From: Geothrix sp. 21YS21S-2
GTDB taxonomy: Bacteria; Acidobacteriota; Holophagae; Holophagales; Holophagaceae
Assembly (NCBI RefSeq): GCF_030846775.1
Contig: NZ_CP132910.1
Location: 1,956,001-2,020,000 of the forward strand
Direction of reading: 5' to 3'
Length of the DNA: 64,000 nucleotides
Notes under the pieces: model-generated
The model's database searches: none
The model's input: the letters and a program-made list of their open reading frames with translations, nothing else
Told to the model about the DNA's origin: nothing
Shown here: positions 41,725 through 60,190 of the stretch, piece after piece
Layout of the letters: the number at the start of each line of letters is the position of its first letter
Numbering within the stretch: the first letter of the stretch is position 1
Position numbers and translations under genes: made by a program

Positions 41725-42118
41725 GCTGGGGGACAGCGAGACCCTGGCCCTCTACGCCGGGTCCGAGGCCGTCTTCACCAGCGGGAGGCACTGGCTGCAT
41801 CCCCTCTTCGACCTGGAGGGCTTCCTGGCCTCCAGCCCCGTCGATCCTGCCGGTGCGGTCCTGCTGGACCGCATCACCGGCCGCGCCGCGGCGTTCCTGG
41901 TGGCCAGGCTGGGCCTCCGGGACCTGCGCACCGGGCTCCTCAGCCGCCGGGCCATCCCGGTGCTGGAGGCGCACGGCATCACCTACCAATGCCGCGAGCT
42001 GGTCGACAAGGTGGCCTGCGCCACCGAGGACCTGCTCGCGGATGTCCGGGATCCGGAGGCGGCCTGGGCCGTCCTCCAGGAGCGCCGGGCCAGGGCCCTC
42101 GCCAAGGAGGCACCATGA
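41714..42118 (+). CDS. DUF1893 domain protein (134 aa)
   Basis: 134 residues, most like the DUF1893 family (AGSEAVFTSGRHWLHPLFDL...RITGRAAAFLVARLGLRDLRTGLLSRRAIPVLEAHGI), whose function is unknown. The GTG start at 41714 overlaps the preceding stop, and its own stop overlaps the ATG of the LarA homologue (ATGA). The tight coupling suggests it works with the LarA-type protein or the small membrane protein. Confidence 0.75.
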   Translation: MRPELGDSETLALYAGSEAVFTSGRHWLHPLFDLEGFLASSPVDPAGAVLLDRITGRAAAFLVARLGLRDLRTGLLSRRAIPVLEAHGITYQCRELVDKVACATEDLLADVRDPEAAWAVLQERRARALAKEAP

Positions 42119-43395
42119 AGACGGTTGATCTCGCCTACGGCAGGAATGGCCTGAAGATGGCCGTCCCCGGCGACGCCCACGTCATCGAGCCCCGGCACCT
42201 CGAGGGCCTCCCGGACGAGGAGGGCGCGGTGCGCGCCGCCCTGCGCAACCCCATCGGCACCCCGCCCCTGAAGGGGATGGTCAAGGCCACCGACCGCGTG
42301 GCCATCGTCATCTCCGACATCACCCGCCCCACGCCCAACCACAAGCTGGTGCCCTGGCTCATGAGCGAGCTCTCCCACGTCCCCCGGGAGAACTTCATCA
42401 TCATCAACGGCCTGGGCAGCCACCGCGCCAACACGCGCGACGAGCTCATCCAGATGCTGGGCCGGGAGATCGTGGAGACCGTGGCCATCGAGAACCACGA
42501 CGCCTTCGACGACGCCAGGCTCGTCCACGTGGGCCGCAACACCTACGGCTCAGAGATCTGGCTGAACAGGACGTACGTCGAATGCGACTTCCGCATCGTC
42601 ACGGGCTTCATCGAGCCGCACTTCTTCGCGGGCTTCTCGGGGGGCCCCAAGGGCATCAACCCCGGCATCGTGGGCATCAAGACCATCCTGGACTTCCACA
42701 ACGCCGAGATGATCGGGCACCCCAACAGCACCTGGGGCCTCATCGAAGGCAACATCCTCCAGGACTCCGCCACCCAGAACTGCCTGATGGCCAAGCCCCA
42801 GTTCATGCTGAACGTGACGCTGAACGGGAAGAAGGACATCACCAACGTCTTCGCCGGCGACGTCATCGAGGCCCACCGCGTGGGCTGCGACTTCGTGCGG
42901 GAGTCGGCGATGTACGCCGTGGACCGGCCCTTCGACATCGTCATCACCACCAACTCCGGCTACCCGCTGGACCAGAACCTCTACCAGACCGTGAAGGGCA
43001 TGAGCGCCGCCGCGCTCATCGTCAGGCAGGGCGGCGCCATCCTCAGCACCAGCGAGTGCTGCGACGGCGTCCCCAACCACGGCAACTACGCCAAGATCCT
43101 CCAGATGCGCGATACCCCCAAGGAACTGCTGGAGATGATCGAGGACCGCAGCTTCTCCATGTTCGACCAGTGGCAGGTGCAGGTGCAGGCCATCATCCAG
43201 CTGAAGGCGGAGTGCCTCCTGTACTCCACCCTGGACGACGAGACGGTCCGAAAGGCGAAGTTCACGCCCATCAAGGACCCCGAAGCGGCCCTGGCCGCGC
43301 TCCTGGAGAAGTTCGGTCCCGGGGCCAGGGTGGCGGTGCTGCCCTACGGCCCCCTGACCATCCCGTACGTCAAAGTCCCCGTGGCCGTAGGCTGA
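42115..43395 (+). CDS. larA: LarA-family nickel-pincer racemase/epimerase homologue
   Basis: 426 residues. The residues that define LarA and hold the nickel-pincer (NPN) cofactor in Lactobacillus plantarum are all at matching places: Asp68 and Arg71 (SDITRP), His103 (GSHRAN), His169 (EPHFFAGFSGG), Lys179 (GPKGINPG, the covalent attachment Lys) and His195. Such enzymes racemise lactate or other 2-hydroxy acids. No cofactor genes (larB, larC, larE) are in the window. Sitting with glycerate kinase and an LctP permease, the substrate may well be glycerate rather than lactate; that is inference. Confidence 0.9.
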   Translation: MKTVDLAYGRNGLKMAVPGDAHVIEPRHLEGLPDEEGAVRAALRNPIGTPPLKGMVKATDRVAIVISDITRPTPNHKLVPWLMSELSHVPRENFIIINGLGSHRANTRDELIQMLGREIVETVAIENHDAFDDARLVHVGRNTYGSEIWLNRTYVECDFRIVTGFIEPHFFAGFSGGPKGINPGIVGIKTILDFHNAEMIGHPNSTWGLIEGNILQDSATQNCLMAKPQFMLNVTLNGKKDITNVFAGDVIEAHRVGCDFVRESAMYAVDRPFDIVITTNSGYPLDQNLYQTVKGMSAAALIVRQGGAILSTSECCDGVPNHGNYAKILQMRDTPKELLEMIEDRSFSMFDQWQVQVQAIIQLKAECLLYSTLDDETVRKAKFTPIKDPEAALAALLEKFGPGARVAVLPYGPLTIPYVKVPVAVG

Positions 43396-43400
43396 CAGAT

Positions 43401-43548
43401 CTTTTCTCGGCGAACCTCGGCGCCTCGGCCACCTCGGCGATAAATTCTGTTTCAAGACGCTGCGGCGCGATGAATTTTTGCGCCGAAGCAGTCTGGAAAA
43501 GAAAAGTATCGCCGAGGTGGCCGAGGCGCCGAGGTTCGCCGAGAAAAG
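43401..43548. repeat. Dispersed repeat copy 1: perfect 42-bp inverted arms around a 64-base core
   Basis: Arms 43401-43442 and 43507-43548 are exact reverse complements. Within each arm a CTCGGCG/CTCGGCC heptamer occurs four times. The core has its own short GC stem (GGCGC/GCGCC). A second copy lies at 58425-58570 in inverted orientation; a 15-base stretch ATTCTGTTTCAAGAC is shared exactly by the two cores. Lies between the convergent larA homologue and HIT gene, six bases after the larA stop. Nothing protein-coding is supported in it. Confidence 0.93.
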
Positions 43549-43555
43549 AGGAAAG

Positions 43556-43963
43556 CTAGTCTTTCGCTTCGAACGGGCAGATTTCCCGCATGTGGTTTCC
43601 CTTGCACGGGATCACCATCCGCACCCCGCCCCGCGGGTTCTCCACGTCCCCGGCGCGCCTCGGGATCAGGTGGATGTGGCTGTGGAAGATCGTCTGTCCC
43701 GCCACGTGCCCCGCGTTCACCCCGATGTTGAATCCCTCAACCGTGGGATCCTCGGCCAGGATGGCCTCGCGCAGCCCCAGCACCAGTTCGTTGCAGGCCT
43801 CCCGCTCCTCCGGCGTGAGGCCGAAGAAGTCCGCCACGTGGCGGTGGGGAATGACCAGCGCGTGGAATTCCGTGACCGGGAACGCGTCCCGCATGGCATA
43901 GGCGAGGCCGTTGCTGGCGATCACGCGCTTGGTGTCGGGACCGCAGAAGGGGCAGGGGCGCAT
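43556..43963 (-). CDS. HIT-family nucleotide hydrolase/transferase
   Basis: 135-residue histidine-triad protein; such proteins hydrolyse nucleoside monophosphate linkages such as adenosine-phosphoramidates and dinucleotides. The triad HSHIHLIPR is at about residues 94-102, and an N-terminal CPFC pair (PCPFCGP) may bind zinc. A second C/H pair near the C-terminus (IPCKGNHMREICPF) could complete it. The ATG at 43963 has GAGG just upstream and is preferred to the ATG at 43978. Convergent with the larA homologue across the repeat. Confidence 0.9.
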   Translation of the reverse strand: MRPCPFCGPDTKRVIASNGLAYAMRDAFPVTEFHALVIPHRHVADFFGLTPEEREACNELVLGLREAILAEDPTVEGFNIGVNAGHVAGQTIFHSHIHLIPRRAGDVENPRGGVRMVIPCKGNHMREICPFEAKD

Positions 43964-43984
43964 GGGGGCCTCACGCATTGACGG

Positions 43985-56469: not shown

Positions 56470-58200
56470 ATGGACAGGATTCTCAGGGTCAACCTGACCG
56501 ACCTCACCACCCGGATCGAGGAGACGCCCGGGGAGTGGGCGGGCCTGGGGGGCCGCGCCCTCACCTCCACCATCGTGGCCAGGGAGGTCCCCCCGGCCTG
56601 CCACCCCCTGGGCCCCAACAACAAGCTCGTCTTCGCCCCCGGCCTCCTCTCGGGCACGTCGGCCTCCAACTCGGGCCGCCTCTCCTGCGGGGCCAAGAGC
56701 CCGCTGACCGGCGGCATCAAGGAGAGCAACGTGGGCGGCACCGCGGCCCAGATGTTCGCGCGGCTCGGCATCAAGGCCCTGATCGTCGAGGGCATGCCCA
56801 AGGGCGCCGCGTGGTACGGCCTTCGGGTCACCAGGGACGGGGTGGCCATCCAGGAGGAGCGGGAGCTGGTCGGCAAGAACAACTTCGCGGTTCTGGAGGC
56901 CATCGAGGGCCGCCTCGGGAAGAAGGCCGGCGTGCTTTCCATCGGCACCGCCGGCGAGATGCGCGTGACGGCCGCCAACATCTCCGTCCGGGACCCCTCG
57001 GGCAAGCTCCGCAGCCACGGCCGCGGGGGCCTGGGCGCCGTCATGGGCTCCAAGCGCGTCAAGTTCATCACCATCGAGGACGAAGGCGCCCCCGGCATCC
57101 AGCTGGCCGATCCCGACAAGTTCAAGGCGGCCTCCCGCGTCTTCACCAAGGCCCTCATGGACCATCCCGTGAGCGGCACCGGCCTGCCCACCTACGGCAC
57201 CAACGTCCTGGTGAACATCCTGCACGAGGCGGGGGGCCTGCCCACCCGCAACTTCACCTCGGGCCGCTTCGACGGGCACGAGTCCATCTGCGGCGAGACC
57301 ATGCACGAAACCATCGTCGCCCGCGGCGGCAAGCCGCGCCACGGCTGCCATGCCGGCTGCGTCATCCAGTGCTCCCAGGTCTACAACGACAAGGACGGCA
57401 ACTACCTCACCTCCGGCTTCGAGTACGAGACCATCTGGGGCCTGGGCGCCAACTGCACCATCACCGACCTGGACGACATCGCGACGGCCGACAGCATCAT
57501 GGACGACCTGGGCATCGACTCCATCGAGACCGCGGTCGCCTTCGGCGTGGCCATGGAGGCCGGCATCCTCCCCTGGGGCGACGGCAAGGAGATGCTGCGC
57601 ATCCTCCGCGAGGAAGTGGGCCAGGGCACCGCCCTGGGCCGCGTCATCGCCTCGGGCGCGGGCGCCGTGGGCCGCACCTACGGCATCACCCGCGTCCCCG
57701 TGGTGAAGAACCAGGGCATCCCCGCCTACGACCCGCGCTCGGTCAAGGGCATCGGCATCACCTACGCCACCACCCCCATGGGCGCCGACCACACCGCCGG
57801 CTACACCATCGCCACCAACATCCTCAACGTGGGCGGCCAGGTGGATCCCCTCAAGAAGGACGGCCAGGTCGAGCTCAGCCGCAACCTGCAGATCGCCACC
57901 GCCGCCATCGACTCCACGGGCATGTGCATCTTCGTGGCCTTCCCCGCCCTGGACATCCCCGAGTGCCTGCCGGCCATGATCGACATGATCAACGCCCGGT
58001 ACGGCGCCGAGCTCACCGGCGACGACGTGGTGGCCCTGGGCAGGACCGTCCTCAAGACCGAGCGCGGCTTCAACATGGCCGCCGGCATGACCAGCGTCCA
58101 CGACCGGCTTCCCGAGTTCTTCCGCACCGATCCCGTCGCTCCGCACGACGCCGTGTGGGACTTCACCGACGAAGAGGTCGACGCGTTCTGGAACTTCTGA
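56470..58200 (+). CDS. aor: Aldehyde ferredoxin oxidoreductase (tungsten-type)
   Basis: 576-residue W/Mo-bis-pterin enzyme that oxidises aldehydes to acids with ferredoxin, or the reverse. The N-terminal pterin-binding segment (LVFAPGLLSGTSASNSGRLSCGAKSPLTGGIKESNVGG, about 53-90), the EYETIWGLGANC segment and the Fe4S4-binding Cys293, Cys297 and Cys301 are present, with a further Cys486 (GMCIF) as the probable fourth. The spacing here is CxxxCxxxC rather than the better-known CxxCxxxC. The ATG at 56470 is six bases after AAAGGGAGA; the open frame from 56245 is non-coding. Paired with a MoaD-like gene whose ATG overlaps its stop. Probable role: oxidising aldehydes from amino-acid breakdown. 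Confidence 0.92.
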   Translation: MDRILRVNLTDLTTRIEETPGEWAGLGGRALTSTIVAREVPPACHPLGPNNKLVFAPGLLSGTSASNSGRLSCGAKSPLTGGIKESNVGGTAAQMFARLGIKALIVEGMPKGAAWYGLRVTRDGVAIQEERELVGKNNFAVLEAIEGRLGKKAGVLSIGTAGEMRVTAANISVRDPSGKLRSHGRGGLGAVMGSKRVKFITIEDEGAPGIQLADPDKFKAASRVFTKALMDHPVSGTGLPTYGTNVLVNILHEAGGLPTRNFTSGRFDGHESICGETMHETIVARGGKPRHGCHAGCVIQCSQVYNDKDGNYLTSGFEYETIWGLGANCTITDLDDIATADSIMDDLGIDSIETAVAFGVAMEAGILPWGDGKEMLRILREEVGQGTALGRVIASGAGAVGRTYGITRVPVVKNQGIPAYDPRSVKGIGITYATTPMGADHTAGYTIATNILNVGGQVDPLKKDGQVELSRNLQIATAAIDSTGMCIFVAFPALDIPECLPAMIDMINARYGAELTGDDVVALGRTVLKTERGFNMAAGMTSVHDRLPEFFRTDPVAPHDAVWDFTDEEVDAFWNF

Positions 58201-58424
58201 TGATCGTCACCGTCAAGCTCTTCGCGCATTTCCGCAACGGCAGGTTCAAGGAGGCCGAGAAGGCCTTCCCGGATGGCGTGGACTGCCTCCACGTCATCCA
58301 GAGCCTCGAATTCACCGCCAGGGACATGGGGATCGTGATGGTGAACGGACTGCATGCCGCCCTGGACAGGCCCCTGGAGGACCGGGACATCCTGGCCCTG
58401 TTCCCCCTGGTCGGGGGCGGGTAG
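58200..58424 (+). CDS. MoaD/ThiS-like sulfur carrier, linked to AOR
   Basis: 74-residue ubiquitin-fold protein ending in VGGG, the terminal glycine motif that is activated to a thiocarboxylate. Such proteins provide the dithiolene sulfur of molybdopterin; small MoaD homologues are often fused or linked to AOR genes. ATG overlaps the AOR stop (TGATG), so it is translationally coupled. Too short for domain details beyond this. Confidence 0.82.
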   Translation: MIVTVKLFAHFRNGRFKEAEKAFPDGVDCLHVIQSLEFTARDMGIVMVNGLHAALDRPLEDRDILALFPLVGGG

Positions 58425-58570
58425 TTTCCTCGGCGAACCTCGGCCCCTCGGCCACCTCGGCGATGCCTTTCTATTCATGGATGCCGCGGCGCGAAGATCC
58501 ATTGCGCCGCACCGTCTTGAAACAGAATGCATCGCCGAGGTGGCCGAGGGGCCGAGGTTCGCCGAGGAAA
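58425..58570. repeat. Dispersed repeat copy 2: perfect 42-bp inverted arms around a 62-base core
   Basis: Arms 58425-58466 and 58529-58570 are exact reverse complements, and the copy is inverted relative to the element at 43401-43548. Arm differences from copy 1 (for example GGCGCC to GGCCCC, TTTTC to TTTCC) are matched by the complementary change in the opposite arm. The core holds a GCGGCGC/GCGCCGC stem. It begins at the stop codon of the MoaD-like gene and ends two bases before the stop codon of the convergent XRE-cupin gene. Confidence 0.93.
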
Positions 58571-58572
58571 AG

Positions 58573-59127
58573 CTAGGCCACGACGTTCAGGATGAAACTC
58601 AGGCTCCCCTTGCCCGTGTTGGCGAAGGCGTAGGGCGTGTCCGAGGGGAAGGCGATGGACTCGCCGGCCTTGAGCACCTGGGTCGCGCCGCCCTGCTCGA
58701 GGGTGAGTTCGCCCCGCACCACGTACACCATCTCCCGGTATCCCGGCAGGTCCGGCTCGCCCTGGTAGCGGTCCCCGGGCGCGATGGTCCACTTCCACAG
58801 CTCCACCGTGCGCTTCGCGGGAAAGCTCTGGAGCAGGTCCACCTTGGTGCCGGGGCTGCTGCCCTGCCAGAGCTGGACGCCCCGGTCGGGGTGGGGGGCC
58901 TCCTGGGCCGCGTTCACCAGCTCGGAGAAGGTCAGCTCGAACGCCGCGGCGATGTGGCCCAGGGTGGCCAGGCTCACGTTGCTCTCGCCGCTCTCGATCA
59001 TGCCGATCATGCGCCGGGAGAGCCCGGCGCGGTCGGCCAGCTCCTGCTGGCTCCACTTCAGGTCGTGCCGCTTTTTGACAATGTTCAGGGAGATGGGGAG
59101 GAAGAGTTTTCGCGGGTCGAAGGCCAT
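58573..59127 (-). CDS. XRE-family regulator with C-terminal cupin domain
   Basis: 184 residues. Helix-turn-helix about 13-70 (LKWSQQELADRAGLSRRMIGMIESGESNVSLATLGHIAAAFEL), then a cupin domain (about 95-180, with PGYREMVYVVRGELTLEQGGATQVLKAGESIAFPSDTPYAFAN) that would bind a small ligand. This layout is common for regulators of amino-acid catabolism. GAGG precedes the ATG at 59127. It is divergent from the ornithine operon, and a 31-base dyad in the shared control region is the expected operator. Confidence 0.9.
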   Translation of the reverse strand: MAFDPRKLFLPISLNIVKKRHDLKWSQQELADRAGLSRRMIGMIESGESNVSLATLGHIAAAFELTFSELVNAAQEAPHPDRGVQLWQGSSPGTKVDLLQSFPAKRTVELWKWTIAPGDRYQGEPDLPGYREMVYVVRGELTLEQGGATQVLKAGESIAFPSDTPYAFANTGKGSLSFILNVVA

Positions 59128-59143
59128 GGGAACCTCAAAGGGT

Positions 59144-59178
59144 AATATATTGCACATCCCAAAAATGCGCAATATACT
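59144..59178. promoter_or_regulatory. Operator with overlapping divergent promoters for XRE-cupin gene and ornithine operon
   Basis: Arms TATATTGCACAT (59146-59157) and ATGCGCAATATA (59165-59176) form a dyad with one mismatch and a 7-base spacer. On the plus strand TTGCAC (59150-59155), 17 bp, TATACT (59173-59178) is a good sigma-70 promoter for arcB. On the minus strand TTGCGC (59172-59167), 17 bp, TATATT (59149-59144) is an equally good promoter for the regulator gene. The two promoters lie on top of each other within the palindrome, so one bound repressor would shut both. Confidence 0.8.
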
Positions 59179-59203
59179 TGCCATGCCGAAAAGGAGAACA
59201 ACC

Positions 59204-60190
59204 ATGGCCGTCAACCTCAAGGGTCGCAGCTTCCTCAGCCTCATGGACTTCACCGTTGAGGAGGTGCGCTACCTCCTGGACCTCTCCCGGGACCTCAAGG
59301 CCAAGAAGCGCATGGGCATCTACAACTACCTCCTGAAGGGCAAGAACATCGTCCTGCTCTTCGAGAAGGCCTCCACCCGCACCCGCTGCGCCTTCGAGGT
59401 GGCGGCGCTGGAGGAGGGCGCCCACGTCACCTTCCTGGACAGCAACAGCTCCCAGATGGGCAAGAAGGAGTCCCTGGAGGACAGCGCCAAGGTCCTGGGC
59501 CGGTTCTTCGACGGCATCGAGTACCGCGGCTACAAGCAGGAAGTGGTGGAGAACCTGGCGAAGTTCTCCGGCGTGCCGGTCTGGAACGGCCTCACGGACG
59601 TCGACCACCCCACCCAGATCCTTGCCGACTTCCTCACCATCGAGGAGCACGTGGCCAAGCCCCTCAACAAGGTCAAGCTGGTGTTCGCCGGCGACATCCG
59701 CAACAACATGAGCTACGCCCTGATGTACGGCGCCGCCAAGACCGGCATGCACTTCGTCGGCCTCGGGCCCAAGGAGCTCTACCCCAGCCAGGAGATCCTG
59801 GACCGGGTGCGCGAAGTGGGCCGGCTCACCGGCGCCAAGATCGAGATCACCGACGACGTGAACGCCGTCGCGGGCGCCGACGTCATCTACACCGACGTGT
59901 GGGCCTCCATGGGCGAGGAGGACCAGATCCCCGAGCGCGTGCGCCTCCTGACCCCCTTCAAGGTCACAATGGACCTCGTGAAGAAGACGAACAACCCCGA
60001 CATGATCTTCCTGCACTGCCTGCCGGCCTTCCACGACTTCGAGACGAAGCTGGCCAAGGACATGATGGACAAGGGCTACGACATCCGCGAAGTGACCGAC
60101 GAGGTCTTCCGCAGCCACCACTCCAAGGCCTTCGACGAGGCGGAGAACCGGATGCACACCATCAAGGCCGTCATGGTCGCCACGCTGTAG
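59204..60190 (+). CDS. arcB: Ornithine carbamoyltransferase, probably catabolic
   Basis: 328 residues. Carbamoyl-phosphate site STRTR (57-61), HPTQ (135-138), the DVWASMG loop (about 231-237) and HCLP (271-274) are intact. The enzyme interconverts ornithine plus carbamoyl phosphate and citrulline plus phosphate. As the first gene of an ornithine-degradation operon it probably runs in the catabolic direction, giving ornithine and carbamoyl phosphate from citrulline. The sequence cannot itself tell ArcB from ArgF. AAGGAG precedes the ATG. Confidence 0.9.
   Translation: MAVNLKGRSFLSLMDFTVEEVRYLLDLSRDLKAKKRMGIYNYLLKGKNIVLLFEKASTRTRCAFEVAALEEGAHVTFLDSNSSQMGKKESLEDSAKVLGRFFDGIEYRGYKQEVVENLAKFSGVPVWNGLTDVDHPTQILADFLTIEEHVAKPLNKVKLVFAGDIRNNMSYALMYGAAKTGMHFVGLGPKELYPSQEILDRVREVGRLTGAKIEITDDVNAVAGADVIYTDVWASMGEEDQIPERVRLLTPFKVTMDLVKKTNNPDMIFLHCLPAFHDFETKLAKDMMDKGYDIREVTDEVFRSHHSKAFDEAENRMHTIKAVMVATL

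Follow-up and report, generated by a model that had tools for sequence, protein, structure and literature searches.

Long palindromes at gene ends in a Geothrix genome and their link with GxxExxY genes flanked by arms of the same type

Two long palindromes lie between convergent genes in the window, the whole 64-kb stretch of Geothrix DNA analysed here, and probably belong to a dispersed family of mobile repeats, as copies that lack a gene; relatives with the same type of arm bear GxxExxY. The family recurs along the genome and in the genus, its two arms covary, copies have been gained and lost at orthologous sites, and arm type is associated with GxxExxY genes both within the genus and across phyla. 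The pairing of GxxExxY with such arms is well supported; as to the mechanism behind it, we infer that GxxExxY mobilises the repeats.

Two palindromes and their dispersed family

Copy 1, on the forward strand, is made of a left arm of TCTTTTCTCGGCGAACCTCGGCGCCTCGGCCACCTCGGCGATA type (43400-43442) with its tail outside and its head inside, a core (43443-43506) and a right arm (43507-43549) that forms a perfect inverted repeat with the left one. Alignment and fold place a smaller hairpin in the core, between CGGCGC (43463-43468) and GCGCCG (43480-43485). Copy 2 lies on the reverse strand, with arms at 58425-58466 and 58529-58570 around a core (58467-58528) whose inner hairpin (58487-58492 with 58504-58509) was located from the sequence and alignment A1. 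Both inverted repeats are perfect, as claimed in the initial annotation, but the arm length of 42 bp that it gave holds for copy 2 only, the arms of copy 1 being 43 bp long. The matched arm differences that it listed between the two copies (GGCGCC against GGCCCC, TTTTCTCGG against TTTCCTCGG, GATA against GATGC) are present as described, and so are the opposite orientation and the common ATTCTGTTTCAAGAC of the cores, which appears in the copy 2 core as its reverse complement GTCTTGAAACAGAAT. Folded as DNA, copy 1 gives a single hairpin of -81.4 kcal/mol, compared to a mean of -27.9 for shuffled sequences (z -18.5).

A search with copy 1, followed by one with a covariance model of 18 copies, located the family at about 45 places of the window's own genome (G000; 5.25 Mb, one contig). 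Copies are thus not restricted to the window, a restriction that the initial annotation had named as the result that would speak against it. Each of the six genus members sampled yielded copies with the covariance model, and 54 other relatives yielded none. Searched with Rfam 15, the 64-kb window gave no match at the gathering score, and a literature search for the unit sequences, strings that may not be indexed as typed, found nothing; as far as Rfam and the literature searched go, the earlier remark that the element fits no named family stands.

The arm is directional, about 40 bp long and built of tandem (C)GCCGAGG units, with GCATCGCC as head and GAGAAAAGA as tail, and can be read as a succession of CTCGGCGAA CCTCGGCC CCTCGGCCA CCTCGGCGATGC. 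Two inverted arms make one copy, and those of the window have their tails outside and a small GGCGC hairpin in the core. Single arms exist as well (L031, L038, L043, L045, L046), as does a copy devoid of core (L047). Throughout the 18 aligned copies, the arm varies and covaries in the linkers that separate its nearly constant CCTCGG parts, while the inner pairs 64-69 with 81-86 show almost no variation. The tandem units depend on the species, being CGCCGAG, CGCTGGG or CGCGGAG, and the GGCGC inner hairpin is retained in the copies of two further genomes of the genus, G002 and G003, though their arm units differ.

Gene ends, turnover of sites and matched arm changes

As noticed at the outset, both copies separate convergent genes and lie within a few bases of stop codons. 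Copy 1 follows by 4 bp the stop of a LarA-like lactate racemase gene (42115-43395, forward strand; PF09861, PF21113) and precedes by 6 bp that of a gene for a HIT-domain protein (43556-43978, reverse strand; PF01230). Similarly, copy 2 abuts the stop codon of a gene for a ThiS-like protein (58200-58424, forward strand; PF02597) and ends 2 bp from the stop of an HTH/cupin regulator gene (58573-59253, reverse strand; PF01381, PF07883). Of 33 family places, for which gene direction was derived from a simple codon-usage score, 24 are flanked by convergent genes, nine by genes of the same direction and none by divergent genes, and the stops are typically 2-20 bp from the copies at convergent sites. 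Since a circular chromosome has equal numbers of convergent and divergent pairs, the ratio of 24 to 0 is not due to chance; promoter avoidance would be enough to account for it.

Such a location, a very stable hairpin and covarying arms would also suit an element that serves the convergent genes at their 3' ends, as a bidirectional terminator or RNA stabiliser whose RNA stem is under selection. We consider this improbable. An intrinsic bidirectional terminator has a T run after its stem-loop, whereas the stem of copy 1 is followed by AAAA, and a terminator scan at copy 1 found no terminator-like site. Among the one-arm changes, G-U is not commoner than A-C (ten of each), which gives no sign of RNA-stem selection, weak as this test is with the transcribed strand unknown. 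Both results speak against the paired-RNA element kept by stem selection that the initial annotation had put forward. Moreover, invariance is found in the CCTCGG units of the arm, as in a sequence recognised by a protein, and covariation in the linkers. Finally, the element is kept at none of the orthologous sites examined in G002 or in another genome, G005.

Indeed, G005 lacks the element at the site of copy 2, where the flanking genes are 91-93% identical and their stops stand about 10 bp apart (TAA GGATCCTG TCA). Ten orthologous sites could be placed in G002, drawn from about 2 Mb of that genome, and the element is present at none of them. Several of these sites are short spacers, two hold a palindrome of a different family between the same two genes according to inverted-repeat detection (CGCTGGG at c4766485 and TTCATCCC at c710755), and three further sites hold a different palindrome as judged by eye. 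Because orthologous sites are empty or otherwise occupied, copies of the family have been gained or lost. The sites c4766485 and c710755 also illustrate that one convergent intergenic site can hold palindromes of different families in sister species. As for target-site duplications, direct repeats of at least five were seen in 4 of 26 cases, compared to 2.5 expected from mismatched flanks, and none was above expectation.

The two arms of a copy do not change independently. In the 18 copies, both members have changed in 22 of the 42 arm pairs; the covariation score is 0.208, a value that 0 of 500 shuffles reached, compared to 0.095 in shuffles, and all five measures of covariation exceed every one of the 500 shuffles. 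With the ragged outer end trimmed and two divergent copies set aside, 19 identical both-arm changes are counted, where about 0.7 would be expected under independent change of the arms, together with 28 one-arm changes. These counts are inflated by the shared ancestry of the copies, which leaves unaffected the changes private to one copy: four matched changes, including a C-to-G in copy 1, versus six one-arm changes. Transversions occur among the private matched changes, and in L021 and L025 the same 8-bp unit is missing from both arms. The proposal that the arms covary is thereby borne out for the matched changes, which are far above expectation, but not as strict identity of the arms, since many copies have one-arm mismatches as well.

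Matched changes of this kind are hard to obtain through two separate mutations. Like the 8-bp losses, they are expected when one arm serves as template for the other, for example in template switching, a process through which multi-base matched changes arise in both arms of a hairpin by one event (PMC8794818). The hairpins homogenised in this manner reflect a mutation process, whereas the palindromes described here form a family of elements. These palindromes also offer a natural data set on how identity between the arms of a long palindrome is maintained. Among the roles initially suggested, that of a non-autonomous dispersed element agrees with arms held identical at the DNA level and with the position of the copies at gene 3' ends, and that of a protein-binding palindrome is possible.

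GxxExxY genes and tandem-unit arms

Genes of the GxxExxY family (TIGR04256/PF13366) were found in 55 of 149 sampled genomes of the phylum and occur in many other phyla as well. A tandem-unit arm, defined as at least three similar 7-mers in a row with a period of 8-11 bp and no more than 300 bp from the gene, lies upstream of the gene at 26 and downstream at 23 of 30 loci of the phylum, the typical unit being CRCNGAG. By the same definition, Y1_Tnp genes gave 0/30 upstream and 1/30 downstream, shuffled sequences 0/150, and distal windows of the same loci 13/180. A set of 80 named loci, taken from Acidobacteria, Bacteroidota, Chloroflexota, Planctomycetota, Verrucomicrobia, Proteobacteria, Cyanobacteria, an archaeal bin and others, has arms upstream at 47, downstream at 52 and on both sides at 38. 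The upstream and downstream sequences of one locus present an inverted match of at least 20 in 50 of 70 pairs, compared to 22 of 279 pairs made across loci. GxxExxY is also present in 14 of the 16 genomes with at least five generic arms versus 41 of the 133 others (Fisher p 1.6e-5). Arms were recognised here by a narrow pattern, which recovers 1 of the about 45 places of G000 and by which all of these 41 GxxExxY genomes have few arms. In most gene-bearing copies the tails face the gene, while those of the window copies are outside. GxxExxY genes flanked by paired arms in such a range of phyla suggest that a class of small mobile DNA has been overlooked.

We do not hold GxxExxY to be the only gene that defines such elements, since four-helix-bundle genes (PF05635, 23S_rRNA_IVP family; phylum loci L394-L423), run as a control, were positive for inverted arms, with a match of at least 20 in 23 of 26 own pairs versus 7 of 95 cross-locus pairs. 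The arm units at these loci (for example AGTCAGC, TAGGGGAC, GCGTAWA, TGGGCAGA) differ from the GxxExxY type. A small gene between inverted arms is thus a wider theme, and GxxExxY may be one among several cargo genes and not the mover.

An alignment of 36 GxxExxY sequences shows an invariant D and an invariant E-x-K, residues of catalytic type. The predicted structure has a pLDDT of 94; a sequence search against solved structures returned no match, and Foldseek returned weak matches only, headed by Cas4 SSO0001 and the Hjc resolvase. A second structural aligner gave Cas4 SSO0001 with Z 9.9 (rmsd 3.2, 98 residues) and restriction enzymes and resolvases with Z 6-7. The predicted fold supports the Pfam placement of GxxExxY in PD-(D/E)XK, as a protein of nuclease fold and putative activity. 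Proximity of the fold to Cas4, Hjc and restriction enzymes, along with the cognate arms, could suggest a host or defence nuclease recognising or cleaving hairpins, with the flanking arms as its own binding or control sites and the dispersed copies as its targets. We regard this as the least probable of the explanations weighed here, as it would by itself leave the multiplication and turnover of the palindromes unexplained. In the literature searched, GxxExxY, PF13366 and TIGR04256 receive incidental mentions only, with no function given, and the link of so widespread a protein to matching, species-specific palindromes offers it a testable role.

Within the genus, two sister species, G001 and G002, have arms of their own type around GxxExxY. 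The G002 GxxExxY gene L376 has arms (AAACGCTGGGGCGCAGAGGGCTCGCTGGGGCGCTGGGGAAAG) that are nearly letter-identical to the dispersed palindromes of that genome (AAACGCTGGGGCGCAGAGGGCTCGCTGGGGCGCTGGGAAAAG), of which there are about 20 in 2 Mb. Four other GxxExxY genes of G002 lie, as judged by eye, between TTCATCCC-type sequences, the type of a second palindrome family in this genome. That second family is the more abundant one, with TTCATCCC units, a GGGCC core and about 40 copies in 2 Mb (tiles L264-L363). In G001, arms of CGCGGAG type flank whole GxxExxY genes and also about 25 dispersed copies from which most of the gene is deleted (L377-L393). In G000, eight full-length GxxExxY genes directly follow a palindrome of CCGAGG units. 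An element of the proposed kind, in which inverted tandem-unit arms flank the gene, was found in G001, in G002 and across phyla, G000 having the palindrome upstream of the gene only. In G003, a draft that is 81% complete, many copies of the palindrome were found and GxxExxY was not.

Within the genus, many GxxExxY genes lie together with their arms inside insertion sequences. In G000, the gene of an IS630-family transposase, a palindrome and a GxxExxY gene adjoin each other in seven or eight near-identical copies (L049-L056). Several copies of an ISL3-family insertion sequence (L032-L036 and L040, near 5.196, 3.671, 1.760, 1.410, 1.228 and 2.167 Mb) present an inside-out palindrome, with heads outside and tails inside, between one end and the transposase gene; in L036, the ISL3 end adjoins another, single arm. 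The GxxExxY units examined in G001 (L377-L393) end in CTAG-type inverted repeats, and those of G002 do likewise.

IS630, ISL3 and CTAG-ended units can move GxxExxY genes or palindromes within the genus in the absence of any GxxExxY activity. It could accordingly be argued that arms and GxxExxY are passengers of ordinary insertion sequences, and that the dispersed palindromes are remnants of decay, immobile themselves; the repeated IS630-type units, the ISL3-type units at about seven places and the CTAG-type ends in G001 and G002 would all be in line with this. We nevertheless find it rather unlikely, because the window copies and most others have no insertion-sequence ends, empty sites differ by little beyond the element and a short spacer, and the link between GxxExxY and arms spans many phyla, where different insertion sequences would be needed. 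At the loci examined, palindromes lie inside the IS630 and ISL3 units, and matching arms were not seen to enclose a transposase gene.

Also to be weighed is an origin as a classic MITE, through deletion within a DDE-transposase element that has long terminal inverted repeats. Bacterial MITEs are small, non-autonomous intergenic repeats with inverted ends (Delihas review, PMC2229807), a description that suits these short, non-coding and dispersed palindromes, and the gene-bearing copies of G001 are internally deleted. However, target-site duplications are missing, neither a DDE transposase between matching arms nor a parent DDE element carrying them was seen at the loci examined, and the arms consist of tandem units that occur in either order, tails out or tails in, and also singly. 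Such an origin is therefore very unlikely.

We thus lean towards gene-less copies of a mobile repeat family with GxxExxY-bearing relatives. New copies would arise from a folded, hairpin form of the DNA, and one arm would be copied from the other, either at the birth of a copy or through later template switching, leaving matched differences. GxxExxY, or its parent element, would supply the activity in trans, a role proposed for RAYT with REPINs, and copies would persist chiefly between convergent genes because insertion there is least harmful. In the gene-bearing relatives, arms of this type would enclose the GxxExxY gene or adjoin it directly. A bolder proposal, possible but doubtful in our opinion, is that GxxExxY is the working part of an unrecognised class of small mobile elements, acting on its own arms, spreading gene-less palindromes in trans and co-evolving with them species by species.

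Comparison with known repeat systems

TIRtrons share the general arrangement. Di Nocera et al. (2013; PMC3733652) describe a gene (TIRYT) located between long inverted repeats that are also dispersed singly or as dimers, list Acidobacteria among the hosts, and place the repeats downstream of and between convergent genes. In that study, the TIRtron gene encodes a tyrosine transposase and a GGGGWSAS motif is given, whereas here GxxExxY and CRCNGAG units are found.

The closest parallels are with REPINs and their RAYT partner (REPtrons). Both systems comprise dispersed, intergenic, non-coding inverted pairs (about 45 places here), single-arm remnants and species-specific families, as well as a gene, present once or in low copy number, that has these sequences on either side in inverted order. 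Changes on one side that compensate those on the other, reported for REPINs in both Nunvar et al. (2010, PMC2817692) and Bertels and Rainey (2011, PMC3116915), occur here too. On the contrary, the 18 aligned copies have no GTAG/GTGG-type head as in REPs, and the arm is a series of tandem CCTCGGC units, not itself a palindrome. The partner differs as well, GxxExxY having a predicted PD-(D/E)XK fold in place of a Y1 tyrosine transposase. A RAYT/Y1 partner (PF01797) was considered and rejected: the genome has five Y1 matches, none near clusters of CCGAG units, and none of the 30 Y1 loci of the phylum has an arm upstream. With a different arm and a different partner gene, the family falls outside REPIN/RAYT proper. 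It is best read as a REP-like dispersed palindrome, in a REPIN-like system that would be paired with GxxExxY; if this pairing is true, REP-like systems would have a second kind of partner protein.
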